From contig NZ_BNEA01000015.1 in NCBI RefSeq assembly GCF_016860525.1, positions 992,001 through 1,056,000 on the forward strand: a stretch of 64,000 nucleotides of DNA, written 5' to 3'. This DNA is from Streptomyces rubradiris. GTDB taxonomy: Bacteria > Actinomycetota > Actinomycetes > Streptomycetales > Streptomycetaceae. The translations under genes were made by a program, and so were the position numbers. Shown one piece after another: positions 49,842 to 64,000 of this stretch. Every line of letters starts with the position of its first letter. Within the stretch, counting starts at the first letter, position 1. The notes beneath the pieces are model-generated. The model worked only from the letters and a program-made list of their open reading frames with translations, was not told where the DNA came from and made no database searches.

Positions 49842-51062
49842 ATGGAGGGGATGGCTGAAGTCGCTTCCTGGGCTGCCGAGTTGGATTCGGTGTTCGCGCG
49901 GGTTGCGGGGAGGTTCGGCCGGGCGGATCTGCGGTGGCGGATGCGGGACTACGTCCGTGGTCTGCTGGGACGGGCGACCCGCAAGAACGGCTGGCAGCTC
50001 GCGGAATGGGCTGGGCACCGCACTCCGGACGGCTTCCAGCGGTTGCTGAACAGCAGCGTCTGGGACGCGGATGCTCTGCGTCATGATGTCCGCGAGTACG
50101 TGGCGGAACGACTGGGGCGGGACGGGGTGCTGATCATCGACGGCACCGGGTTCGTCAAGAAGGGCACCACCTCGGCCGGGGTCGGCCGGCAGTACACCGG
50201 CACCTCCGGAAAGATCGACAACTGCCAGATCGGGGTGTTCGCCGCCTACGCCACCGGCTCGGGCCGGGCGTTGATCGACCGGGAGCTCTACCTGCCCAAG
50301 TCCTGGACCTCCGACCGTGAGCAGTGCCGGGCCACCAAGATCCCTGACGAGCGGACGTTCGCGACGAAGGGCGAGCTGGCCCGGGACATCGTCCGCCGTT
50401 GCCTGGCCGCCGGCCTGCCCGCCGCCTGGGTCACTGCGGACGAGGCTTATGGACAGGACTGGCGCTTTCGCCGCCTGCTCGAGCAGCTCGGCGTCGGCTA
50501 CGTGGTGGCAGTGCCCAAGTCCCAGCAGATCAAGTCCCTGGCCGGGATCTGGCGCATCGACCAACTCATCGAGGATGCTCCTGCTGATGCCTGGCAGCGG
50601 CTGTCTTGCGGCGACGGGGCGAAGGGCCCGCGAGTCTACGACTGGGCTGCGGCCAAACTTCCTGCCAACTTCATCTTCGATCCCGACCCGCCGACCCATC
50701 ACCGCTGGGTGATGGCCCGGCGCAGCCTGTCAGACCCCGGCAAGGTCGCCTACTACCTGGCCTACGCACCCACCGGCATCGAGCTCTGCGACCTGGCCCG
50801 CATCGCCGGCAGCCGCTGGGCGATCGAGGAGTGCTTCCAGGCAGCGAAGAACGAGTGCGGCCTGGACGAGTACGAGGTCCGTCGATACGTGGGCTGGTAC
50901 CGGCACATCACAATCGCACCAGTCGATGCCGTGATAACCATCCACGGCATAATTGATCTCGTACTGAGCTGCGGACGCTGGGGCAGACGCCAGAGCGATG
51001 CATGCGCCGACCCCAATGATGGCCATCCAGACCTTACGAGCAGACACCACAGTACCCCCTGA
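49842..51062 (+). pseudogene. IS701-family transposase, 3'-truncated and chimeric
   Basis: Residues 1 to about 355 are a typical IS701-family DDE transposase: IIDGTGFVKKGTTSAGVGRQ with the first Asp, WVTADEAYGQD with the second Asp, and SRWAIEECFQAAKNECGLDEYEVR with the catalytic Glu. Homology stops after GWYRHIT near base 50915, where the family normally continues for several dozen more residues. The remaining frame reads through foreign DNA that encodes, on the other strand, the start of a secreted protein. The element's right end is therefore missing and the transposase is probably inactive. Confidence 0.8.
50915..51047 (-). pseudogene. 5' remnant of a secreted-protein gene cut by the IS701-like element
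   Basis: A minus-strand start (GTG at 51047, or 51050) follows AGGGGG and encodes SARKVWMAIIGVGACIALAS and then APASAAQYEINYAVDGYH, a good signal peptide and a short mature part. The frame then enters the IS701-like element near 50915 and loses sense. It was one of several small secreted proteins in this region. Confidence 0.6.
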
Positions 51063-51299: not shown

Positions 51300-52142
51300 T
51301 TTCAGTTGGCGTGATCTTGCGGCAGTCTGAGCTGATGACTGCTGCGCTTGTCGAGCGGATGGCGCCGAAAGACCTGTGGAAGCTGTTCCAGCGGGTGGTG
51401 CCGCCGACACCGGTCCGTCCGCAGGGGGAGGGCGTCGTCGGCGAGGGGACCGCGAGGCACTGGCCGCGATCACCTTCGCGGCCCCCACGGGCTGCACCCA
51501 GAACCAACTACCGCCGGGCTTCGGTCTGTCCGGGGTGACCACCTTCCGCAGGTTCACCGAGTGGACTGAGGCCCGGGTGTGGGCCAAGCTCCACCGCCTG
51601 CTCTTGGACGAACTCGGCGCCCGGGGCGAGCCGGACTGGTCGCGATGCGCGATCGACTCCGTCAGCGTCCGGACCCTCAAAGGGGGCACCTGACGGGACC
51701 GAATCCGACCGACCGCGGCAAAAAGGGATCGAAAATCCACCTTACCGTCGACCGTACCGGCCTGCCCCTGTCGATCGGCATCTCCGCCGCCAACCTCCAC
51801 GACAGCCAGGCCCTCATCCCGCTCGTCCGCGGCATCCCGTCCATACGCTCCCGCCGTGGTCCTCGCCGCCGGCGCCCCGGCAAGCTGCACGGAGACAAGG
51901 GCTACGGCTACCAGCACCTGCGGCGATGACTGGCTTCCCGCGGCATCCGACACCGCCTCGCCCGCAAGGGCGTCGAGTCCTCACAACGCCTGGGACGACA
52001 CCGCTGGGTCGTGGAGCGAACCATGTCCTGGCTGTCCGGCTGCCGACGCCTCCACCGCCGCTACGAGCACAAGCCGGAACACTTCCTCGCTTTCACCTCC
52101 ATCGCCGCGACACTCATATGCCACCGCCGACAGCCCAAGTGA
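51300..52142 (+). pseudogene. Decayed IS5-family transposase
   Basis: The parts of an IS5-group DDE transposase lie in three frames: APKDLWKLFQRVVPPTPVRP (from about 51360), then CTQNQLPPGFGLSGVTTFRRF to DWSRCAIDSVSVRTLKGG (to 51690), then GPNPTDRGKKGSKIHLTVDR to GDKGYGYQHLRR. An in-frame TGA at 51927-51929 follows, after which homology resumes with RHRWVVERTMSWLSGCRR to 52142. At least two frameshifts and one stop make it inactive. Imperfect terminal repeats may lie near 51289-51308 and 52134-52155. Confidence 0.8.
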
Positions 52143-54484
52143 AATGGCGTCTTCACCCGATGCGAGGTTCGAAGCAGCCTGATCTACTCCCCACGCGCCG
52201 GCGAAGCACACTGCTTGTTGCGTCCGTCCCTCCCACGGATGCGCACCCATCGGAGGGCCAGCACGTCGGCCAGAGCGCGGCCGACAGCCCGGAAGAGCGT
52301 GGGGCTGCGCCCGGCGCTCCGACTTCCATCGACGCCCGAGGAGGTGAAGCCGGGCTTCGACTACCTCTTGGAGCTGCAGCAACCCGCCGCACCTACGGAA
52401 CCAGGAGACCGCCTGAACAGCATCGCGAAGCACCTGATGACCCATCAGAACGAGCGCCAAATGAGCGTCAAGGTATCACCCGTAACGCCCATAGCGCACA
52501 TCATGCGCACCCACCGAAACCGCAGGTCAGCGGCCCTTTTCGACGGGATCCAGAATCACCACACACTCCACATGATGCGTCATAGGAAAGATGTCGGCCT
52601 GCGCGAGTCGGGAAAAGTCCCAAGTCAGAGCTCACTTTCCTGACTTACCGTGCCTCGAGATGATGGCGAGAGCGTCAAACGAGCGTCATGGCCGACAGCC
52701 TGTCCTGTCCACTCGACTGAGCTGCCACAACCAGTTCCCGACAGACTCCGCCTCGCTCACTCCAGACATCGGCGCGCTCATCATGAGCCGCACGCCTTCT
52801 CTGGCTGACGACTACCAAAGGACACCGGTGAGCTCCTGCCGGACGCCGATGAACATTTCTGGTGAGGAGGCCGAGGACCTCGCGCTCTACCAGGAGAAGT
52901 GCCGACGGCGTCTGCTGGAGTCGCCGGAAGAGTTACACGGCTCGACCAAGGGGTCGTGGAGCTGCCGGTGCACCCCGCAAACTGGTCGGTCGCACCGAGC
53001 GCACCCTGCGTGAGCACACCTTCCCTTAGCTCGCCTCACCGCAGGTTTCCGGGAAGGCGCGCGCCTTCCCGGTACGCTGCTGCCACCCGCCTCGGTGCAA
53101 GACGCACGGCGACAGGACAGTCCCTCCTGCGGTCGGCGCCCCGGCGATCTGAATCATGACACCGCGTCAGGCGACAGCCCTACGGCTCTTGTCGCTTCCT
53201 GCGCGATGCCTGCGCAGCGCTGGATTTCCGGTCCTCCGTGCCCGCGTCATCGGAGCGGTGGCCGGAGAGTCCGTCTCCGCGGTGAGTGGCCTGACGGCGT
53301 GGGGCTCGCGTGCCTCAATCCCCTCAGTCCCAGGGATAGGGTCGGCCTGTACGAGTACGGAAGCGGAACGTCTGCGGTGTCCGTGTCCGGGACGGGCAGG
53401 ACGTTCCGACGCTGCAGCTGGGAGACGCTGAGCAGCGATGGCATGAGAACACCATCGAGTAGCTCATTCTGAGCCGACTGCAGCTCGATCAAATGTCACA
53501 GGACGGCGAGCACATACTGAAGTTCATCGCTCCAGGCGGTGTGCCACCGGTCCGGCAGAAGTTGGTCCAGTCGGCTGACGGCCCGGCGAGACAGCGGTCC
53601 CGTCCTGTGTTTCAACCAGCCGTCGAGAACGTTTTGTCCGCTGACTTAGTATCGCGCACCACTTGAGTCACCGACCCGAAGCCGCCCTGAACGAAGCGGA
53701 GTTCCAGCGCAACGCGCCTGTCGCGCTCCGACGAAGCCCCCAGAGCAGCCTCCGCCTTGAGCAGTCGGTGCTCGGCCGGGGCGCCGCGAGAACCAGTCCT
53801 CATCGAGAACGACAGGAGCCGTGTCCACGGCGACGGCGAGCTCCCCGGCGTCTTCCGGTATCTGCGGCTCGGCGACATCAGGCCCCTCCGGTCCCGCCAC
53901 TCCCCGGCCCTCCGCCTCTGTTCCCGAGTCAGCGGCACCCCTCACCCTGCCCGCCGCCGCTCACCCGCCTCGCGAGCCGTCAGCCCAGCCAGTCGGATTA
54001 CCCCGTCGAGAGCGCGAGACACCCCTGATCCATCGACGTGCTCATGACGCGCAAGAAGTGCCCGCACCCGACCGATACACGGTGACACATTTTCTCCACG
54101 GGACGATGCAACCTTTTCCACATCCGGAGTGTCCGCGTCTATATGCACGCGTGCGCCCTGAACGGGCAGACCGAGCCGGGACAGCTCACCCGCAGCCGGG
54201 CCTGCACGACCGGCCCGAACCACCAGACGCCCCGCCCAGCCGACGGTCTGATCGTCACGCCGCCCACTCCACTCACTTCACGCCAAGAAGAAAAGATGTC
54301 CGTTGACAACGCTAACGGAGATTCATCTACCCAGGACCCTTCAGATTGTGTACAGTGACGGCTGCCTCACTGTCTGTTCTGACACGATGGGCCGTGCGGC
54401 AGCAGATGAGGGGGGCGTTCCCGCCGGTTAGCCGGTCGGCCACCGCGAGAACGCGAGCAGAGGGTAGAGGGCAGAGGAGCGGCA
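52143..54484. other. 2.3-kb stretch without a convincing gene
   Basis: Open frames are short and mutually overlapping, with weak codon bias and no recognisable domains; base composition is mixed. It probably holds gene remnants and the promoter region of the downstream helicase operon. A TTGACA hexamer lies at 54303-54308. A 20-codon ORF with a purine-rich leader lies at 54296-54358. Confidence 0.5.
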
Positions 54485-57400
54485 GTGAGCCACGAGCTCG
54501 TCGACGGCAGATTCCGCATCGTGCGCGTCATCGGCAGGGGCAACATGGGGGAAGTCCATCAGGCCGAGGACCTGCACGCTCCTGAGGGTTCGCCCGAGCG
54601 CAAGGTCGCCGTGAAGACGATCCTTCGCCGCCGCACCGGAATCCGGATCGACACCAGCGGCGACACCAAAGCTGTGGAGCGCTTCGCCCGCGAAGTGGGC
54701 ATCATGCGGCACCTGGATCACCATCCCAACCTCACCCGGCTCATCGAGGGCGGCATCGCTGCGGACTGCGACGGTCTGCCGTACCTGGCGATGGAGTACC
54801 TGGACGGCAGCTCGCTGCGCGATCTCATCGATGAGGAGCCGCAGCTCCCCGTCTCCTGGGTCGCCGCCGTCGGAGCGCAGGTCGCCGCTGGCCTCGCCGC
54901 CGCGCACGCCCAGGGCGTGGTTCACCGGGACCTGAAGCCCTCCAACGTCATGATCACGAGGGGCGGCACCGTTAAGGTGCTCGACTTCGGCATGGGCAGC
55001 ATCGTCGACGACTCGGACCAGACCCGCCTGACCAGTACGGGCGTCAGCGTGGGCACCGCCCGGTACATGGCTCCGGAGCAGTGCCAGGCCAAGCAGGTGA
55101 CTCAGGCCGCCGACCTGTACGCGCTGGGCTGCATCCTCTACGAGATGCTGGTCGGCGTCCCTCCGTTCACCAGCGAATCGGCGTACGAGCTGGCGGAGCG
55201 CCATGTCCACCAGGAACCGAGCCCGGTCCGCGCGATCCGCGCGGAGATTCCCCCTGAGCTGGCCCGTCTCGTGGACCGGCTGCTCGCCAAGAAGCCTGCC
55301 GACCGCCCGGCCGACGCTGTGGCCGTACGGGATGCGCTCCTTCCGCTTGCCCTACCGTCTGGGGACGGCTCCCTGGTTCCCACCTGGAGCCACCTGGACC
55401 CCACACTCCCCCTGCGGGAGGAGCCCCCGGCGCCGACCGCTCCCCAGGAGCAACCGCCCGCTCTGGTGACGTCCTCCGGCAACGCCATGGACGTCTTCGG
55501 CGTCCACCAGGCACTCATCCGCGACTACCGCTCCTTCACCGAGGGCGGCACCGTCATCCGCGACGAGCGCGTCAAGGCGTACGTCGAAAAGGATCTCGAC
55601 GACAAGTCTCAGTGGCCCAACCCCTGGCTGTCGCTAAACCCGTTCTTCCAGGGCGGCGGCACGGTAGTGGAACTCGCTCAGCAGAAGGTGCTGCACCCGG
55701 AATGCGCCCGCATCTTCCAGGCGAAGAAGACGGAGGGCGGCACCGTCTGCGACGGCCGGCCCCTGCTCCTCCACCAGCACCAGCGTGACGCCATCGACGC
55801 CGCCGCCTCCGGAGCGTCGTACGTCCTGACGACCGGCACAGGATCCGGCAAGTCGCTCTCCTACATCGTCCCGATCGTCGACAAGGTGCTGCGCCAGCGC
55901 GACGCCGAGGGCCCGAACGCGGCGAAGCGGGTGCGGGCGATCATCGTGTATCCGATGAACGCGCTCGCCAACAGTCAGCTGCGCGAGCTGGAGAAGTACC
56001 TGCGCGACGGCTACGGCACCGGCCGTGAGCCGGTCACCTTCGCCCGCTACACGGGTCAGGAGGACGACGCCAAGCGCAAGGAGATCCGCGACAACCCGCC
56101 GGACATCCTGCTCACCAACTACGTCATGCTTGAGCTGATGCTGACCCGCCCGGCCGACCGGGCGAGCCTGATCAGGATGGCCCAGGGCCTGGAGTTCCTC
56201 GTCTTCGACGAACTGCACACCTACCGCGGCCGCCAGGGCGCCGACGTGGCCCTGCTGATCCGCCGTGTCCGGGAGGCCTGCCGGACGGAGAACCTTCAGT
56301 GCATCGGCACGTCGGCCACGATGTCGACCGAGGGCACGCTGGAGGACCAGCGACGCGTGGTCGCCGATGTGGCGAGCAAGCTGTTCGGGACGACGGTCCA
56401 GCCCGAGCACGTCATCGGTGAGACCCTGGTCCGCGCGACCGACGAGGCGCCCGACACCGTGCCGGCCGAACGCCTCACCTCACCCGCTCCGCGCGCCTAC
56501 GACGACCTGGTGCGCGACCCGCTGGCCCGCTGGATCGAGGACCGGTTCGGACTGGTCGAGGACGAGACCACCGGCAGTCTCGTACGCCGGCCGCCGACAC
56601 AGATCGAGGTCGCCGCGGACGAGTTGCACGAGAGCTCCGGCGTCGACGAGGAACTGTGCGCGCAGGCGATCCGTGACACCCTTGAGGCCGGCTCGCAGGC
56701 ACTCAACCCCCGCAACGAACGTCCCATGTTCGCGTTCCGCCTGCACCAGTTTCTCTCCAAGGGCGACACCGTCTACGTCACCCTGGAGCACAAGTCCTCC
56801 CGCCACCTCACCCGTTCCTACCAGCTCGAACAGCCGGGCAGCGGCGGCAAGTTGCTGATGCCGCTCGCCTTCTGCCGGGAGTGCGGGCAGGAGTACCTGA
56901 CGGTTTGGCGCACGGAGAAGGACGGCGAGGTGCGCTACGAAGCCCGCCGTGACACCTCGGCGACCGGTGGCCGACAAGGAGACGGCTATCTGTACGTGGA
57001 CCACGAGCGCGAGTGGCCGTCCAATGTGCAGTACGCGGTCGACGACCGCCGACTGCCCGAGTCCTGGCTGGAGTTGGACGACAAGGGCCAGGAGGTCGTC
57101 AAGCGCGCGTACCGCGACCGCGTTCCGAAGGCCGTCACCGTCGACCCGTTCGGCCACGAGGGCCGGGGCGAGCTGAAGGCCGCGTTCATCCCCTCCCCCT
57201 TCCTGTTCTGCCTGCACTGCGGTGTGGCCTACGAGCAGACACGCGGCCGCGACTTCGCCAAGCTGGCCACGCTGGACCAGGAGGGCCGTTCCTCCGCGAC
57301 CTCACTGGTCTCGGCGTCGATCGTGCGCTCCCTGAAGTCGGTGCCGGAGGAGGCCCTGGACAAGGAGGCGCGCAAGCTCCTCACCTTCGTCGACAACCGG

Positions 57401-60400
57401 CAGGACGCGTCCCTCCAGGCGGGTCACTTCAACGACTTCGTGCAGATCACCCAGCTGCGCGGAGCGCTGTACCGGGCGGCCCTGGACGCCGGCGAGGACG
57501 GCCTGCACCACGAGGAGCTCGCCTCCGCCGTGACCAACGCGCTCGCCGTCTCCCCCGTCGACTACACCGGCGAGGCCGACCTGCCCCCGTCGCTGGCGCG
57601 CAACGCCGCCCGAACGCTGCGGGATGTGGTCGCCTTCCGGCTCTACCTCGACCTGGAACGCGGCTGGCGCATCACCATGCCCAACCTGGAGCAGACCGGA
57701 CTGCTGGAGATCGACTACGAGGACCTGGACTGGGTCGCCGCCAAGCAGGACCGCTGGGAAGGCACCCACCAGGCGCTGCGGGACGCCGACCCGGCGCTGC
57801 GGGCGGAGGTGATGAAGGCGCTGCTGGACGAGATGCGACGCTCGCTCGCCATCGACGTGTCGTACTTCCGCGACGACACCTTCGACTCCCTTCAGCGGGC
57901 CAGCGAGGAACGGCTCGTGGACCCGTGGATCCTGTCCTCCGCCGACAAGCCCCGCGTCGGCACCGCCTACCCGCATCCCTCCCGGCCGGGCATGGACCGC
58001 TCCAGCCTGTTCCTGTCGGCACGCGGCAAATATGGCAAGTACCTGCGACGGGCCGACCGCACCTTCCGTGACCTCGACCAGGACGACCTCCAGCTGATCA
58101 TCACGGAGCTGCTGAAGGTGCTAACCAAGGCGGGCCTGGTGAAGGAGGTGGAGGCGGCGCCGCAGCGGGCCGGCCGCTTCCGCAGGACGGCGTCGACCAC
58201 CACGACCGGATATCGAGTGGCCGCCCAGTCGCTGGTGTGGCGCGCCGGCAAGGGCGAGTCGGGCGCGCACGACCCGCTGACCCGCACCTACCAGAGCGGC
58301 GACGGTCCGCGCATCAACACGTTCTTCCTCAAGCTGTACCGGGAGACGGCCGATGCCCTGGCCGGCCTGTATGCCCGCGAACACACCGCGCAGGTGTCTC
58401 CGGAGGACCGTGAGGCGCGTGAAGAGGCCTTCCGCAAGGCGGAGTTGAAGCTGCTGTACTGCTCCCCCACCATGGAGCTGGGCGTCGACATCTCCTCGCT
58501 CAACGCGGTGATGATGCGCAATGTGCCGCCCACCCCCGCGAACTACGCCCAGCGTTCGGGTCGCGCGGGCCGCAGCGGCCAGCCCGCCCTCGTGACGACG
58601 TACTGCGCGACCGGCAACAGCCACGACCAGTACTACTTCCGTCGCTCCGAGCGCATGGTGGCGGGCGCGGTCGCCCCGCCCCGCCTGGACCTCGCCAACG
58701 AGGATCTGGTCCTCTCGCACCTCCAGGGCATCTGGATCGCCGAGGCGGGGCTGCGCCTGGGGCGCTCCATCCCGGAGGTGCTGGATGTGTCGTACCCGGA
58801 CACGGGCGACCGCCCCGATCCGGCCCTGCACCTGCTGCCCGACATCCGGGACGCGGCGTACGACGAGGGTGCCCAGCGGCGCACGGTCGACGCGGCCCTG
58901 CGTGTCCTCGGCCCGCTGTTCAGGGAGTTCGCCGAGACGACGTGGTGGCACGACGACTGGATCGACGACAAGGTCCGCACCGTCGCCGAGCGCTTCAACC
59001 GCGCCTTCGACCGCTGGCGCGGCCTGTTCCGCGCCGCGCTCGACGACCAGTACGTCCAGAACAAGCGGCGCCTGGACTACAGCCTCACCGAGAGCGACCG
59101 CAACCGCGCCAACGCCCGCCGCCGTGAGGCGGAGACACAGCTCAACCTGCTGATGAACGAGAGCGTGGACAGCAAGTCGGTCCTCTCCGACTTCAACCCG
59201 TACCGCTACCTGGCCTCCGAGGGCTTCCTGCCCGGCTACAGCTTCCCCCGCCTGCCGCTCGCCGCGTACATCCCGACGATCGGCCGCCGCCGGGGCGACG
59301 GCGACTACCTCCAGCGCCCCCGCTTCCTCGCCATCCGCGAGTTCGGTCCCGGCGCGCTCATCTACCACGAGGGCGCCCGCTACCAGGTGACCCGCATCCA
59401 GCTGCCCCCGGACTCCTCCGGCGAGCTGACCACGGGCGAGGCCCGCCGCTGCGAGAACTGCGGCTATCACCACGAGCCCAAGGACCGCGAGGACCGCTGC
59501 GGTTTCTGCAACGAGACGCTGGGCGCGGCGACCTACGGCCTGCTGCACCTGCACACCGTCTACACCACCCGCCGTGAGCGGATCTCCTCGGACGAGGAGG
59601 AGCGGCGCCGGGCCGGCTTCCGGCTGGAGACGTCGTACCGCTTCCACGACCACGGTGCCCGCAAGGGCCGCCTCAACGCGAAGATCACCGATTCCGCGGG
59701 CGGGCAGCTCGCCGAGATCGCGTACGGCGACTCCGCGACCGTCCGCATCACCAACACCGGCCGGGTCCGCGCCCGTACGGATGAGCCGCCGGGCTACTGG
59801 CTGGACCTGGCTGACGGCCGCTGGATGAACGACAGGGACGCGGCCGAGGCCTCCGGCGACTCCAGCGAGCTCCCGCTGGTCGACTCGGACGGCAACGAGC
59901 GGCGCCGCAAGAAGCGCGTCATCCCGTTCGTCGAGGACCGCCGCAACATCCTGGTCGTCACTCTCGACGAGGCGCTGCCCGAGCCGATCGCGCTCACCCT
60001 GATGTACGCGCTGGAGCGGGGCATCGAGGCCGAGTTCGAGCTGGAGGACGCCGAGCTGTCCAGCGAGCTGCTGCCGCCGGACGAGGGGCCGAGGCGCCGC
60101 ATCCTGTTCATGGAGGCAGCGGAGGGCGGCGCGGGCGTACTGCGCCGCCTCCAGGCGGAGGACGACGCCCTCGCCAAGGCGGCCCGCCGCGCCCTGGAGA
60201 TCTGCCACTTCTCGCGGGACGGCAAGGACGAGGGCGGCGAGGAGCACCGCCCGGGACGCGCCTGCGCGCTCGGCTGCTACGACTGCCTGCTCACCTACGG
60301 CAATCAGCTCGACCACGCCCAGATCAACCGGCACACGGTGGCCGGGCTGCTGGTGCGGTTTGCGTCGGCGTCGGCGAGCCGCGAGTCACGCGGCGAGTCC

Positions 60401-60787
60401 CGCTCCGAACAGTTCCGGCGCCTGCTCGCCGAGTCGGACCCGGCGCCTGGCCCCACCCCGCTGGAGGAGTCCGCCGCCGAGCTGGCCGCGAAGGGCGACT
60501 TCCTGGGCTGGGTCAAGGCGTGCGGGCTGCGCCTCCCGGACGAGAAGGACGTCCTCCTGACGGAGGCGAACGCGGCACCGGACTTCGTGTACCGGCTGCC
60601 GGGCGCCAATGTCGCCGTGTTCGTCGACGGACCCGGCACGGAGCAGAGCGCCCTGCGGGACGCCGACGCGGAGGAGCGGCTGTTCGACGCCACCTGGGAC
60701 GTCGTCCGCTTCCCGCACGGCGCCGACTGGGCCGCCATCGCCGCCACCCACACCCGCTATTTCGGCTCCCCGGCCGCAGGCCACTGA
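54485..60787 (+). CDS. Ser/Thr protein kinase fused to DEAD/DEAH helicase with DUF1998-type C-terminus
   Basis: A 2100-residue fusion. Residues about 8-275 are a complete Hanks-type kinase: GRGNMGEV loop, VAVKTI Lys, HRDLKPSN, DFG in KVLDFGMG, MAPEQ. Residues about 400-1400 are a superfamily 2 helicase: TGTGSGKS (about 450), IIVYPMNALANSQLREL, FDELHTYRG (about 575), GTSATMS, and after a long insert SPTMELGVDISSLN and QRSGRAGR (about 1360). Cys pairs (CRECGQEY, CLHCGVAY, CENCG...CGFC) and a C-terminal CALGCYDCLLTYGNQLDH match DUF1998/MZB, as in DrmB and DruE. All catalytic motifs look intact. GTG at 54485. It leads an operon with an SNF2 helicase and a probable DNA methyltransferase, which points to phage defence. 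Confidence 0.9.
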   Translation: MSHELVDGRFRIVRVIGRGNMGEVHQAEDLHAPEGSPERKVAVKTILRRRTGIRIDTSGDTKAVERFAREVGIMRHLDHHPNLTRLIEGGIAADCDGLPYLAMEYLDGSSLRDLIDEEPQLPVSWVAAVGAQVAAGLAAAHAQGVVHRDLKPSNVMITRGGTVKVLDFGMGSIVDDSDQTRLTSTGVSVGTARYMAPEQCQAKQVTQAADLYALGCILYEMLVGVPPFTSESAYELAERHVHQEPSPVRAIRAEIPPELARLVDRLLAKKPADRPADAVAVRDALLPLALPSGDGSLVPTWSHLDPTLPLREEPPAPTAPQEQPPALVTSSGNAMDVFGVHQALIRDYRSFTEGGTVIRDERVKAYVEKDLDDKSQWPNPWLSLNPFFQGGGTVVELAQQKVLHPECARIFQAKKTEGGTVCDGRPLLLHQHQRDAIDAAASGASYVLTTGTGSGKSLSYIVPIVDKVLRQRDAEGPNAAKRVRAIIVYPMNALANSQLRELEKYLRDGYGTGREPVTFARYTGQEDDAKRKEIRDNPPDILLTNYVMLELMLTRPADRASLIRMAQGLEFLVFDELHTYRGRQGADVALLIRRVREACRTENLQCIGTSATMSTEGTLEDQRRVVADVASKLFGTTVQPEHVIGETLVRATDEAPDTVPAERLTSPAPRAYDDLVRDPLARWIEDRFGLVEDETTGSLVRRPPTQIEVAADELHESSGVDEELCAQAIRDTLEAGSQALNPRNERPMFAFRLHQFLSKGDTVYVTLEHKSSRHLTRSYQLEQPGSGGKLLMPLAFCRECGQEYLTVWRTEKDGEVRYEARRDTSATGGRQGDGYLYVDHEREWPSNVQYAVDDRRLPESWLELDDKGQEVVKRAYRDRVPKAVTVDPFGHEGRGELKAAFIPSPFLFCLHCGVAYEQTRGRDFAKLATLDQEGRSSATSLVSASIVRSLKSVPEEALDKEARKLLTFVDNRQDASLQAGHFNDFVQITQLRGALYRAALDAGEDGLHHEELASAVTNALAVSPVDYTGEADLPPSLARNAARTLRDVVAFRLYLDLERGWRITMPNLEQTGLLEIDYEDLDWVAAKQDRWEGTHQALRDADPALRAEVMKALLDEMRRSLAIDVSYFRDDTFDSLQRASEERLVDPWILSSADKPRVGTAYPHPSRPGMDRSSLFLSARGKYGKYLRRADRTFRDLDQDDLQLIITELLKVLTKAGLVKEVEAAPQRAGRFRRTASTTTTGYRVAAQSLVWRAGKGESGAHDPLTRTYQSGDGPRINTFFLKLYRETADALAGLYAREHTAQVSPEDREAREEAFRKAELKLLYCSPTMELGVDISSLNAVMMRNVPPTPANYAQRSGRAGRSGQPALVTTYCATGNSHDQYYFRRSERMVAGAVAPPRLDLANEDLVLSHLQGIWIAEAGLRLGRSIPEVLDVSYPDTGDRPDPALHLLPDIRDAAYDEGAQRRTVDAALRVLGPLFREFAETTWWHDDWIDDKVRTVAERFNRAFDRWRGLFRAALDDQYVQNKRRLDYSLTESDRNRANARRREAETQLNLLMNESVDSKSVLSDFNPYRYLASEGFLPGYSFPRLPLAAYIPTIGRRRGDGDYLQRPRFLAIREFGPGALIYHEGARYQVTRIQLPPDSSGELTTGEARRCENCGYHHEPKDREDRCGFCNETLGAATYGLLHLHTVYTTRRERISSDEEERRRAGFRLETSYRFHDHGARKGRLNAKITDSAGGQLAEIAYGDSATVRITNTGRVRARTDEPPGYWLDLADGRWMNDRDAAEASGDSSELPLVDSDGNERRRKKRVIPFVEDRRNILVVTLDEALPEPIALTLMYALERGIEAEFELEDAELSSELLPPDEGPRRRILFMEAAEGGAGVLRRLQAEDDALAKAARRALEICHFSRDGKDEGGEEHRPGRACALGCYDCLLTYGNQLDHAQINRHTVAGLLVRFASASASRESRGESRSEQFRRLLAESDPAPGPTPLEESAAELAAKGDFLGWVKACGLRLPDEKDVLLTEANAAPDFVYRLPGANVAVFVDGPGTEQSALRDADAEERLFDATWDVVRFPHGADWAAIAATHTRYFGSPAAGH

Positions 60788-60816
60788 CGGATCACCAAGA
60801 GGATTTGACGATCACC

Positions 60817-63753
60817 ATGGCATTCACGTTCTCCGCCGGATCCCTGGTCAAGGCCCGTGGCCGCGAGTGGGTCGTACTCCCCGAGAGCGAGCCCGACCTG
60901 CTGGTGCTGCGCCCGCTGGGCGGCTCGGACGACGACATCGCGGCGGTGTTCCCCTTCGAGCCGGTCGAGGAGGCCCGTTTCGCGCCGCCCGAGCCGACCG
61001 ACCTCGGCGACCAGCGGGCCGCGGGCCTGCTGCGCACGGCGCTGCGAGTGGGCTTCCGCTCGGGCGCGGGCCCGTTCCGCTCGCTGGCCAGCATCGCGGT
61101 GGAGCCGCGCGCGTACCAACTCGTACCGCTGCTGATGGCCCTGCGCCAGAAGACGGTCCGCATGCTCATCTCGGACGACGTGGGTATCGGCAAGACGGTC
61201 GAGGCGGGCCTGATCGCGAGCGAACTGCTGGCGCAGGGCGAGGCGACGGGTCTGGCGGTCCTGTGCTCCCCCGCGCTGGCCGAACAGTGGCAGCAGGAAC
61301 TGCGCAGCAAGTTCGGCATCGACGCTGAGCTGGTGCTGGCGTCGACGGTGTCGCGGCTGGAGCGCGGCCTGGATCTGGGGCAGTCGCTGTTCGACAAGCA
61401 CCCTAACGTGATCGTGTCCACGGACTTCATCAAGTCCCCGCGCCACCGGGACGACTTCGTTCGTCACTGCCCCGACCTGGTGATCGTGGACGAGGCGCAC
61501 ACCTGCGTGACCGCCGACGACACCTCCGCGAGCGCCCAGAGCCAGCTGCGTCACGAGCTGCTGCGCCGCGTGGCGGAGGACGCCGACCGCCACCTGCTGC
61601 TGGTCACTGCGACCCCGCACAGCGGCAAGGAGTCGGCGTTCCGGAACCTGCTCGGGCTGGTCAAGCATGAGCTGGCGCATGTGAACCTGGAGTCGGAGGC
61701 GGGCAGGAAGCTGCTGGCCCAGCACTTCGTGGCACGCAAGCGGGCGGACGTAAGGCAGTACCTGACGAAGGAGGACGGCCTGGCGGACGACTCCCTCACG
61801 GAGCGCACGGCCTTCCCGTCGGACCGCTACTTCAAGGACGAGACGTACAAGCTGTCCCCCGAGTACCGGGCGCTGCTGGACGACGCGATCGCCTACGCGA
61901 GTGAGCGGGTCGAGGAGGCGGGCGGCCAGGGCAAGCGGGAGGCCCGTATCGCCTGGTGGTCGGCGATCGCGCTGCTGCGCTCGCTGGTGTCGTCGCCTAG
62001 GGCTGCGGCGCAGACTCTGACGACGCGTTCGGCGGCGGCGATCGCGGCGAGCGCGGAGGAGGCCGACAAGCTGGGTGCCCCGCTGAACAGTGACGCGGCG
62101 GACAGCGACGCCATGGAGGGCATGGACGTGGCGCCGGGCGCGGAGACGGACGAAGGTTCCGCGAAGTCCCGGCTGGCCGAACTGGCCGAACGTGCCGCGC
62201 AGTTGGAAGGCCCGGAGAAGGACCTCAAGCTGAAGGCGCTCATCAAGCACCTCAAGGCGCTGCTGGCTGACGGCTACAACCCGATCGTCTTCTGCCGCTA
62301 CATCCCGACGGCGAAGTACCTGGCCGAGCAGTTGGCGAACGACCCGGAGAAGAAGAAGCGCGGTCCGCTGGGCGCGAAGACGGTCGTGAAGGCGGTCACG
62401 GGTGAGCTGTCTCCGCAGCAGCGCATCGAGCGGATCGAGGAGCTGGCGGCGGAGGCCGGCGAGGACGCGGCGGCCCGCCGGGTCCTGATCGCCACGGACT
62501 GCCTGTCGGAAGGTGTGAACCTCCAGCACTACTTCGACGCCGTGGTCCACTACGACCTGGCCTGGAACCCGACCCGCCACGACCAGCGCGAGGGCCGCGT
62601 CGACCGCTACGGCCAGCGCCGCGACGAGGTACGGGTCATCACGCTCTACGGCGACGACAACGGCATCGACGGCAAGGTCCTGGAGGTGCTGATCAAGAAG
62701 CACCGCCAGATCAAGAAGGACCTGGGCATCTCGGTGTCCGTCCCGGACGAGCTCTCCACGGGCGTGACGGACGCGATCGTGGAGTGGCTGCTGATGCGCG
62801 GCCGCGAGGACCAGGACGCACTGTTCAGCGCGGACGCGTTCAAGGTGAGCAAGGAGAAGCTGGAGAACGACTGGAACTCGGCGGCGGAGCGCGAGCGCAC
62901 CTCCCGCTCCCGTTTCGCACAGCGCTCGATCCACCCGGAGGAGGTGGCCCGCGAGGTCGCCTCGATCCGGGAGGCACTGGGCGGGGCGGGCGAGATCCGG
63001 ACGTTCGTACGGGAGTCTCTGGGCGCGCTCGGTGCCGTGCTCCGGGGCGAGGGCGAGGACTTCACGGCGCAGGTCGGCGGCACGCCAGCGGGCCTGCGGG
63101 ACGCGCTCGCGTCGACCGTGGGCGCGGACGTGATCGAGAAGGACCGCGCGATCCCGTTCCGGACCGATCCGGCGGTGGCACGCGGTGAGGCAGCCCTGGT
63201 GCGCACGGACCCGGTCGTGGGCGCGCTCGCGTCCCACGTCCTGAACGCCGCCCTGGACACCCAGGCGGAGGGCGCCCGCCCGGCCCGCCGCTGCGGTGTG
63301 ATCACGACGGACGCGGTGAGTACGCGAACGACGTTGCTGCTGGTCCGCTACCGCTTCCACCTCACCCTGCCCTCCCGGCACGGCGAGCGCCAGCTGGTGG
63401 CGGAGGACGCCCGGCTGCTGGCGTTCGAGGGCGCACCGAGGAACGCGGTGTGGCTGCCGCAGGAGCGGGCGGCCGAACTGCTGGACGCGACGGCCTCGGA
63501 GAACACGGACCCGCACTTCGGCGAGCGGACGATGGCCCGCATTCTCGGACAGCTGACCGATGTGGACGAGCATCTGAAGGCGTACGGCGAGGAGCTGGCC
63601 GCCGAACTGGACGCCGCCCACCGCCGGGTGCGCGCCGCGTCCGGCGAGATCGTCCGCGGCTTGTCGGTCACGGCCCAGAAGGAAGCCGACATCCTCGGCG
63701 CCTACGTCTACCTCCCCGCCACCACCTCTGTTCCCGCTGGAGCGTCCGCCTGA
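60817..63753 (+). CDS. SNF2-family helicase, DrmD-like
   Basis: A 978-residue superfamily 2 ATPase. An N-terminal beta region (about 1-90) precedes the helicase core: RAYQLVPLLMAL, DDVGIGKTVEAGL (about 118-130), IVDEAHTC (about 223), TATPHSG (about 265), a Glu/Lys-rich insert, then CLSEGVNLQHY and DQREGRVDRYGQ (about 565-598). This RapA/HepA-like form is that of DrmD, the SNF2 helicase of class 1 DISARM. The C-terminal 380 residues are helical. ATG at 60817, 29 bp after the kinase-helicase gene; the stop overlaps the next start (TGATG). Confidence 0.87.
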   Translation: MAFTFSAGSLVKARGREWVVLPESEPDLLVLRPLGGSDDDIAAVFPFEPVEEARFAPPEPTDLGDQRAAGLLRTALRVGFRSGAGPFRSLASIAVEPRAYQLVPLLMALRQKTVRMLISDDVGIGKTVEAGLIASELLAQGEATGLAVLCSPALAEQWQQELRSKFGIDAELVLASTVSRLERGLDLGQSLFDKHPNVIVSTDFIKSPRHRDDFVRHCPDLVIVDEAHTCVTADDTSASAQSQLRHELLRRVAEDADRHLLLVTATPHSGKESAFRNLLGLVKHELAHVNLESEAGRKLLAQHFVARKRADVRQYLTKEDGLADDSLTERTAFPSDRYFKDETYKLSPEYRALLDDAIAYASERVEEAGGQGKREARIAWWSAIALLRSLVSSPRAAAQTLTTRSAAAIAASAEEADKLGAPLNSDAADSDAMEGMDVAPGAETDEGSAKSRLAELAERAAQLEGPEKDLKLKALIKHLKALLADGYNPIVFCRYIPTAKYLAEQLANDPEKKKRGPLGAKTVVKAVTGELSPQQRIERIEELAAEAGEDAAARRVLIATDCLSEGVNLQHYFDAVVHYDLAWNPTRHDQREGRVDRYGQRRDEVRVITLYGDDNGIDGKVLEVLIKKHRQIKKDLGISVSVPDELSTGVTDAIVEWLLMRGREDQDALFSADAFKVSKEKLENDWNSAAERERTSRSRFAQRSIHPEEVAREVASIREALGGAGEIRTFVRESLGALGAVLRGEGEDFTAQVGGTPAGLRDALASTVGADVIEKDRAIPFRTDPAVARGEAALVRTDPVVGALASHVLNAALDTQAEGARPARRCGVITTDAVSTRTTLLLVRYRFHLTLPSRHGERQLVAEDARLLAFEGAPRNAVWLPQERAAELLDATASENTDPHFGERTMARILGQLTDVDEHLKAYGEELAAELDAAHRRVRAASGEIVRGLSVTAQKEADILGAYVYLPATTSVPAGASA

Positions 63754-64000
63754 TGTCCGCCACCACCCGCAACCAGGTGTTCACCGCCATCCACACGGTC
63801 GGGGGGCTGCTGCCGGCCGACATGCTCCTGAGAATCTCGGAGGGCAAGGATGTCCCGGGCTCCAAGCCCGCCGACTACGGCCTGCCCTCCTCGCGCTCGG
63901 TACGGGACGAGGCGGAACGCGGCTGGGAGTACCTCAAGCCGCTGTGGCGGGAGCTGCGCCGACGGCTGCCGGAGAACCGGGAGACGGGCGTGCCCGCCGC
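63753..64000 (+). CDS. Probable adenine DNA methyltransferase, N-terminus only
   Basis: The first 82 residues of a gene that runs off the window, starting 1 bp inside the SNF2 gene stop. The sequence has TRNQVFTAIHTVGGLLPADM, RISEGKDVPGSKPADYGLPS and SVRDEAERGWEYLKPLW. From memory this opening is typical of large Eco57I-type/DrmMI-like adenine methyltransferases in actinobacteria that follow DrmD-like helicases. The catalytic NPPY motif is not in view, so the call rests on that resemblance and on context. Confidence 0.5.
   Translation, partial: MSATTRNQVFTAIHTVGGLLPADMLLRISEGKDVPGSKPADYGLPSSRSVRDEAERGWEYLKPLWRELRRRLPENRETGVPA

Follow-up and report, generated by a model that had tools for sequence, protein, structure and literature searches.

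The three genes at the right-hand end of the window (the whole 64,000-nucleotide stretch analysed here, G000:C15:992001-1056000, from a 9.05 Mb host genome) probably form an ARMADA Type I anti-phage operon whose helicase carries a fused protein kinase. ARMADA is a DISARM-related kind of system named in 2025, and the available text of the preprint by Bell et al. 2025 gives the Type I order as a YprA-like helicase, then a BrxHII/RapA-like SNF2 protein, then a PglX-like methyltransferase (PMC12458937). The operon was assigned by comparing its predicted parts and their order with that published description, and because both match, it was assigned to ARMADA Type I and not to DISARM. The new feature is the kinase joined to the ARMADA helicase: the word "kinase" has 0 occurrences in the main text of the ARMADA paper (PMC12458937), and in a search of the open-access PMC literature on titles, abstracts and word counts, none of the matches listed reported a kinase-fused ARMADA.

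All three genes lie on the forward strand. ORF A (54485..60787, GTG start, 2100 aa) encodes an ArmC-like helicase of the YprA family with a fused kinase. ORF B (60817..63753, 978 aa) encodes an ArmA-like SNF2 helicase resembling DrmD, RapA and BrxHII, and ORF C, whose start is in the window (63753..64000), encodes an ArmB-like N6-adenine methyltransferase according to profile matches and motifs. ORF C runs beyond the window edge to a full length of 1382 aa (L006:754-4902). The gap between ORF A and ORF B is 29 bp, and ORF B and ORF C overlap by 1 bp (TGATG), which bears out the account given in the sequence-only reading of three tightly spaced genes for a giant helicase with a DUF1998 part, an SNF2 protein and a methyltransferase. 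The upstream flank is IS-rich, as that reading also held, with an IS transposase (DDE_5 in Pfam) at 49842..51062 on the forward strand and an IS4/5 DUF4096 piece at 51376-51693.

ORF A opens with a Ser/Thr kinase domain (residues 11-276, 54515..55312, on the forward strand like all features of ORF A; Pfam Pkinase, 160 bits), and in its sequence the catalytic residues are intact. The kinase scores 265 bits against the NCBIfam PknB model, which has a cut-off of 450, and PknB also supplies its nearest solved chains among the matches listed. At the fusion junction stands the ATG of Met335 (55487..55489), the point at which unfused helicases start. Pfam then finds a DEAD/RecA1 part (residues 431-614, 55775..56326), a helicase C-terminal or RecA2 match (residues 1294-1365, 58364..58579) and an MZB/DUF1998 zinc-binding part (residues 1839-1935, 59999..60289), in which three cysteines are invariant in 76/76 fused rows. 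Together with the Pkinase match, these confirm the kinase-helicase fusion proposed earlier. The protein ends in a Vsr-like domain (residues about 1985-2097, 60437..60775) whose motif histidine is replaced; erosion of the Vsr motif affects 62 of 76 fused copies, including this one. A tie between nuclease loss and kinase gain was considered and rejected: rows without a kinase lack VDGPxH just as frequently (20 of 28, with an unusable fragment among them), so that the loss seems unconnected to the kinase.

The top PADLOC models for ORF A were DruE (337 and 305 bits) and kinases, and neither DrmA nor DrmB was among its best 25 of 70 models. Sequence matches to solved structures also make ORF A YprA-like (among the matches listed). 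The sequence-only reading had proposed that DrmA and DrmB occur here as one polypeptide; ORF A is indeed a single protein, but the one that it most resembles is DruE.

The kinase is strongly conserved. Of 16 kinase positions inspected, 15 are identical in all 77 fused proteins, and the first glycine of the loop is kept in 69/77, while the linker between kinase and helicase is variable. Of 78 fused rows, one of them a duplicate, 77 still have the start methionine of the ancestral helicase at the junction (76 recognised by pattern, L046 by eye). An internal second start at this methionine was considered and rejected because 68 of the 76 pattern-matched cases have none of six Shine-Dalgarno-like words upstream; the junction methionine therefore looks like a relic and not a start.

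ORF B matches Helicase_C, DEAD and SNF2-rel_dom in Pfam, and its nearest solved relative by sequence is RapA (among the matches listed). The earlier description of this second gene as DrmD-like stood as to likeness (276 bits in PADLOC, 307 bits in NCBIfam), but not as to the curated NCBIfam DrmD cut-off of 610, which was not reached. A separate observation concerns naming. ORF B (60817-63753) matches the PADLOC DpdE model PDLC02853 over its whole length with 1957 bits, yet against NCBIfam DpdE it scores 162 bits with a cut-off of 500, which places it outside Dpd. PADLOC may therefore label ARMADA genes as Dpd.

ORF C matches Eco57I, MmeI_Mtase and N6_Mtase in Pfam, and in PADLOC it matches DrmMI (236 bits) and type IIG enzymes. 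It carries the motifs DPACGSG and NPPWD, in agreement with the adenine methyltransferase predicted as third gene. The sequence past 64000 thus continues an adenine methyltransferase, and not genes unrelated to methylation or nucleic acids, which the sequence-only reading had named as the outcome that would count against it. Over 72 operons, DPACGSG is present in 72/72, and the second motif is NPPWD in 44/72 and NPPWE in 28/72.

A survey of co-occurrence, as suggested earlier, found that, of 77 distinct fused loci, 76 have a relative of ORF B and 76 a relative of ORF C; both are missing only from L080, which ends at a contig edge. This pairing argues that the grouping of the operon is not chance. 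The ORF C relative is complete in 72 of the 76 loci, cut by the sequence end in L096, L111 and L112, and covered to 83% in L093. Across 72 operons, and with shared ancestry not corrected for, the identities of the kinase, the helicase and ORF B are correlated (rho 0.89-0.92; 0.92 for kinase and helicase, 0.92 for helicase and ORF B), and residues 800-1250 of ORF C are uncorrelated with the helicase (rho 0.04). Helicase pairs that are at least 90% identical have ORF C variable regions less than 40% identical in 37/178 cases, and pairs less than 75% identical have variable regions more than 70% identical in 13/1523. An absence of correlation with the helicase is expected of a swappable DNA-recognition region, and the variable region of ORF C behaves as such a region would.

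The helicase core was found in 34 of 199 genomes of the same genus. Of these, 28 have a frame of at least 2000 aa (29 places, 68-100% identity), two of the 28 also having an unfused copy; the remainder are four genomes with unfused copies only, one copy cut by a contig end and one in two pieces. Across the class the core is present in 33 of 394 genomes, where 13 have frames of at least 2000 aa, all at 60% identity or more, and frames of 1700-2000 aa occur at 56% identity or less; in one more genome, G489, the fused copy is broken. In the phylum it is present in 17 of 296 genomes and fused in only the two of the same genus. Among plasmid matches (40 of 75 records), one from Streptomyces extends into the kinase, the remaining 39 beginning at query residues 327-336, and phages gave one distant match in 50,697 records.

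Altogether at least 78 fused loci were collected, at least 77 of them distinct (a named-genome scan with at least 75 loci, plus additional regions). The duplicate, L191, repeats L071 and was dropped from the counts. Outside both the fused and the kinase-less counts are L103, L105 and L197 (G489), which are broken, L066, L073 and L117, which lie at contig ends, and L203, which is partial. The genome-survey and locus counts share strains (for example G195 and L064) and are not additive. Fused proteins occur in seven families: Streptomycetaceae, Nocardiopsidaceae, Actinopolysporaceae, Thermomonosporaceae, Micromonosporaceae, Pseudonocardiaceae and Streptosporangiaceae. The distribution of the operon is patchy, and at some sites it may be decaying (L103, L105, G489 and G136). 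Judged from these sequences, the kinase-helicase fusion is a stable one, retained by many soil actinobacteria.

The history of the kinase was followed with a FastTree tree of helicases, which has 109 rows, all of them relatives of ORF A; the position of one row, L165, a short stray fragment, carries no meaning. All 77 fused rows fall into one clade (support 0.945), within which a single kinase-less row, L075, is nested. L075 keeps ORF A, ORF B and ORF C without the kinase, and a fused copy, L074, occurs in the same genome. This row probably represents one nested kinase loss, so the system does not absolutely depend on the kinase. Searches with tblastn (E 1e-10) detected no kinase in the sequence examined around the 28 kinase-less rows, L075 included. 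The sister of the fused clade consists of four Streptomyces loci (L146-L149), and the two clades are joined with support 1.0. In these four loci a stand-alone, divergent kinase gene lies beside the unfused helicase and is transcribed away from it. In the best kinase tree, the four separate kinases join a genome paralogue (99/96) and not the fused kinases, but a tree with fused and separate kinases as one clade was not rejected (p-AU 0.274). Kinase recruitment would thus have happened once, or twice in sister lineages, and either history would tie the kinase to this helicase.

In 25 of 77 fused loci a gene for a sigma-70-like protein (regions 2, 3 and 4) lies directly upstream and is divergent; five of the 25 matches are shorter than 250 aa. 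Beyond it, 20 of those 25 loci, or 20/77 fused loci, have drmA and drmB, where upstream sequence of at least 7 kb is present in only 59 of the 77. The 20 loci all fall within one 41-member subclade, with repeated losses. Representative drmA products score 890 bits against DrmA (cut-off 950), and drmB products score 434 bits against DrmB (cut-off 240). drmA is present in 1 of 28 kinase-less loci (Nocardioides, L009) and in 0 of 4 loci with a separate kinase. Relatives of ORF B or ORF C were absent from six drmA-bearing upstream stretches (tblastn, E 1e-4), a search that leaves room for unrelated methyltransferases.

The sigma-70-like protein is a giant of about 1150-1290 aa (L225:1722-5450, L230:1415-4849), with a C-terminal half without a Pfam match and a sigma part that resembles PADLOC MzaA (141 bits). 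The C-terminal half was found in 7 of 181 genomes (surveys of 101 and 80, taken as non-overlapping, with the C-terminal half of one protein as the only query), five times beside a kinase-fused operon. In G078 the sigma match is at the end of another contig, and the operon, also at a contig end, adjoins the initial part of a sigma gene (L054). In G136 a deletion scar was seen (G136:C1 near 6549300-6550100, L251), where kinase residues 1-104 are joined directly to the end of ORF C; sigma, drmA and drmB are still standing there. Two plasmids were also observed. L009, on the conjugative plasmid pNOCA01 of Nocardioides sp. JS614, has drmA, drmB and a kinase-less ARMADA Type I-like operon with McrBC adjoining, and L010, on plasmid MP1 of Deinococcus radiodurans, has an ARMADA Type I-like operon whose methyltransferase gene is annotated as two parts and after which come an IS630 element and McrBC.

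The window has only a remnant of the divergent sigma-70-like gene, at 53954..54187 on the reverse strand (82 aligned columns, 51% identity, E 1e-10), with no open frame around it and a stop codon just behind. The unexpected drmA-drmB pair is absent from the window: the 20 kb upstream of its operon gave no drmAB match and hold IS elements. The back-to-back arrangement suggests that parts of DISARM and of ARMADA, treated until now as distinct systems, may cooperate. On a tentative reading, which we consider possible but rather doubtful, the kinase-fused ARMADA operon, the divergent sigma-70-like gene and drmA-drmB would be one compound system in the Streptomyces/Kitasatospora lineage, in which DrmA-DrmB would borrow the SNF2 protein and the methyltransferase, and the kinase and sigma-like protein would control both arms. 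The window would then descend from such a locus by decay, with the kinase arm retained and the DrmAB arm gone.

Directly downstream of ORF C lie three overlapping genes (L006:4938-9282), encoding a 539-aa and a 204-aa protein, both without a Pfam match, and an Hsp70 joined to a Zc3h12a/NYN RNase domain. They are followed by EcsC, a Gabija pair (GajA 608 bits, GajB 358 bits in PADLOC), a 431-aa protein without a match and a McrB-like AAA protein with DUF4357. The GajA (L006:11939-14434), next to GajB, has an extra N-terminal HATPase_c_2 domain at residues 25-125. With Gabija and the McrB-like protein following the operon, the surroundings are a defense island, as had been suspected. Membership of the Hsp70-NYN module in the system was considered and rejected, and the module is treated as island cargo: relatives of all three of its proteins were found together at only L044, L046, L050 and L068, a lower bound of four, as the scanned loci reach 2-3 kb past ORF C. 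The drmC/PLD-type genes that the sequence-only reading proposed to look for past 64000 did not appear, as no PLD nuclease matched in 10 downstream proteins (Pfam) or 9 (PADLOC), among the matches listed. No GajB-like gene is among the three genes next after ORF C, and the GajB further on pairs with GajA.

By its anatomy, the operon most likely encodes an anti-phage helicase system that is guided by methylation and carries its own kinase switch. The anatomy, conservation and co-variation described here are the basis for this, and the remainder comes from inference and from experiments on ARMADA Type II, which in E. coli is experimentally anti-phage and, in the available text, is reported to act directly and non-abortively (PMC12458937). 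The methyltransferase would mark the host's DNA at a site particular to each strain. Incoming DNA that lacks the mark would be recognised by the SNF2 protein and the helicase, which would unwind or block it, or cut it where the Vsr site is intact. The kinase would be the switch, phosphorylating the system's own proteins once the helicase engages target DNA and so gating their action, whether by activating or by restraining it. Kinases have precedents in defense proteins: the MAD6 and PD-T4-6 profiles match the kinase of ORF A, and PglW and some DndF proteins contain kinases, according to the available text of PMC12839542.

The main rival keeps the same ARMADA system and makes the kinase its effector, phosphorylating host or phage proteins after the helicase senses phage DNA and thereby halting growth. 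The PD-T4-6, MAD6 and MkoA profiles that match here describe kinases that are, or belong to, other defense proteins, and an effector role has been proposed in print for the PglW kinase of BREX Type 2 (PMC12839542, available text). The eroded nuclease motif of most fused copies would leave room for another effector, but that motif is missing as often without a kinase, and the direct, non-abortive action reported for Type II does not suit growth arrest; we regard an effector kinase as possible, though unlikely. A DISARM variant with DrmA and DrmB as one polypeptide, the interpretation offered by the sequence-only reading, is very improbable. It would explain the DrmD and DrmMI matches of ORF B and ORF C and the drmA-drmB genes that adjoin 20/77 related loci, but ORF A is nearest to DruE (best 25 of 70), no DrmC was found in the 10 (Pfam) or 9 (PADLOC) downstream proteins, the NCBIfam DrmD cut-off was missed, and the helicase-SNF2-methyltransferase order is that of ARMADA Type I. 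That interpretation was thus partly upheld, in the fusion, the DrmD-like gene, the methyltransferase and the defense setting, and was set aside as to DISARM membership. A housekeeping DNA-repair helicase of the MrfA/YprA kind with incidental neighbors would fit the MZB/DUF1998 part and the YprA similarity, but hardly the patchy presence (34/199, 33/394 and 17/296 genomes of genus, class and phylum), the pairing with SNF2 and methyltransferase genes in 76/77 fused loci, the swapped ORF C variable region or the defense-gene neighbors, and we give it almost no credence. The gated ARMADA operon is therefore the preferred reading, and a clade-wide fused kinase with intact catalytic residues suggests that part of ARMADA is probably controlled or armed by protein phosphorylation.

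Compared with ARMADA Type I as described in the available text of PMC12458937, the operon is alike in its helicase-SNF2-methyltransferase order, its DUF1998 part within a one-polypeptide YprA-family helicase and its commonness in Actinomycetota. It differs by the N-terminal Ser/Thr kinase, which is fused here and a separate adjacent gene in the sister clade, and, in a Vsr-like C-terminal domain that may correspond to the Vsr-type nuclease domain of Type I, by the eroded motif of the window's copy. Type I is described as also having inserted domains of the BrxA-like, beta-barrel and MarR-like kinds. ARMADA Type II has the same three homologous proteins, but in the same text its helicase gene is third and is followed by a RelE-GajB-like gene, whereas here the helicase comes first and the genes after the methyltransferase encode the 539-aa protein, the 204-aa protein and Hsp70-NYN; the layout is thus not that of Type II. 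DISARM class 1 shares the DrmD-like and DrmMI-like proteins, but its DrmA and DrmB are separate, where this operon has one helicase-DUF1998 protein nearest to DruE and no DrmC was found. The DruE of Druantia is the best non-kinase PADLOC match of ORF A (337 and 305 bits), but the neighbors of ORF A are SNF2 and methyltransferase genes and not other druantia genes.

The PglW of BREX Type 2 and the kinase-bearing DndF proteins are alike in having a kinase inside a large multi-domain DNA-modification defense protein (PMC12839542). As that source's available text describes it, PglW consists of NERD, pseudokinase, winged-helix and STAND parts and has no YprA helicase, and ORF A scores 51 bits against an NCBIfam PglW cut-off of 990 (PMC12839542 for the domains). 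The other BREX Type 2 proteins, PglZ and a BrxC-type protein, were not among the best 25 PADLOC models per downstream protein. Mokosh MkoA is alike in being a long defense protein that starts with a kinase, and the separate kinase of L146 matches positions 7-265 of the 1112 of the MkoA profile. The remainder of MkoA is a helicase of COG1112, a family other than YprA, and MkoA pairs with a PLD nuclease. In the operon described here, by contrast, the kinase is joined to a YprA helicase that pairs with SNF2 and methyltransferase genes.
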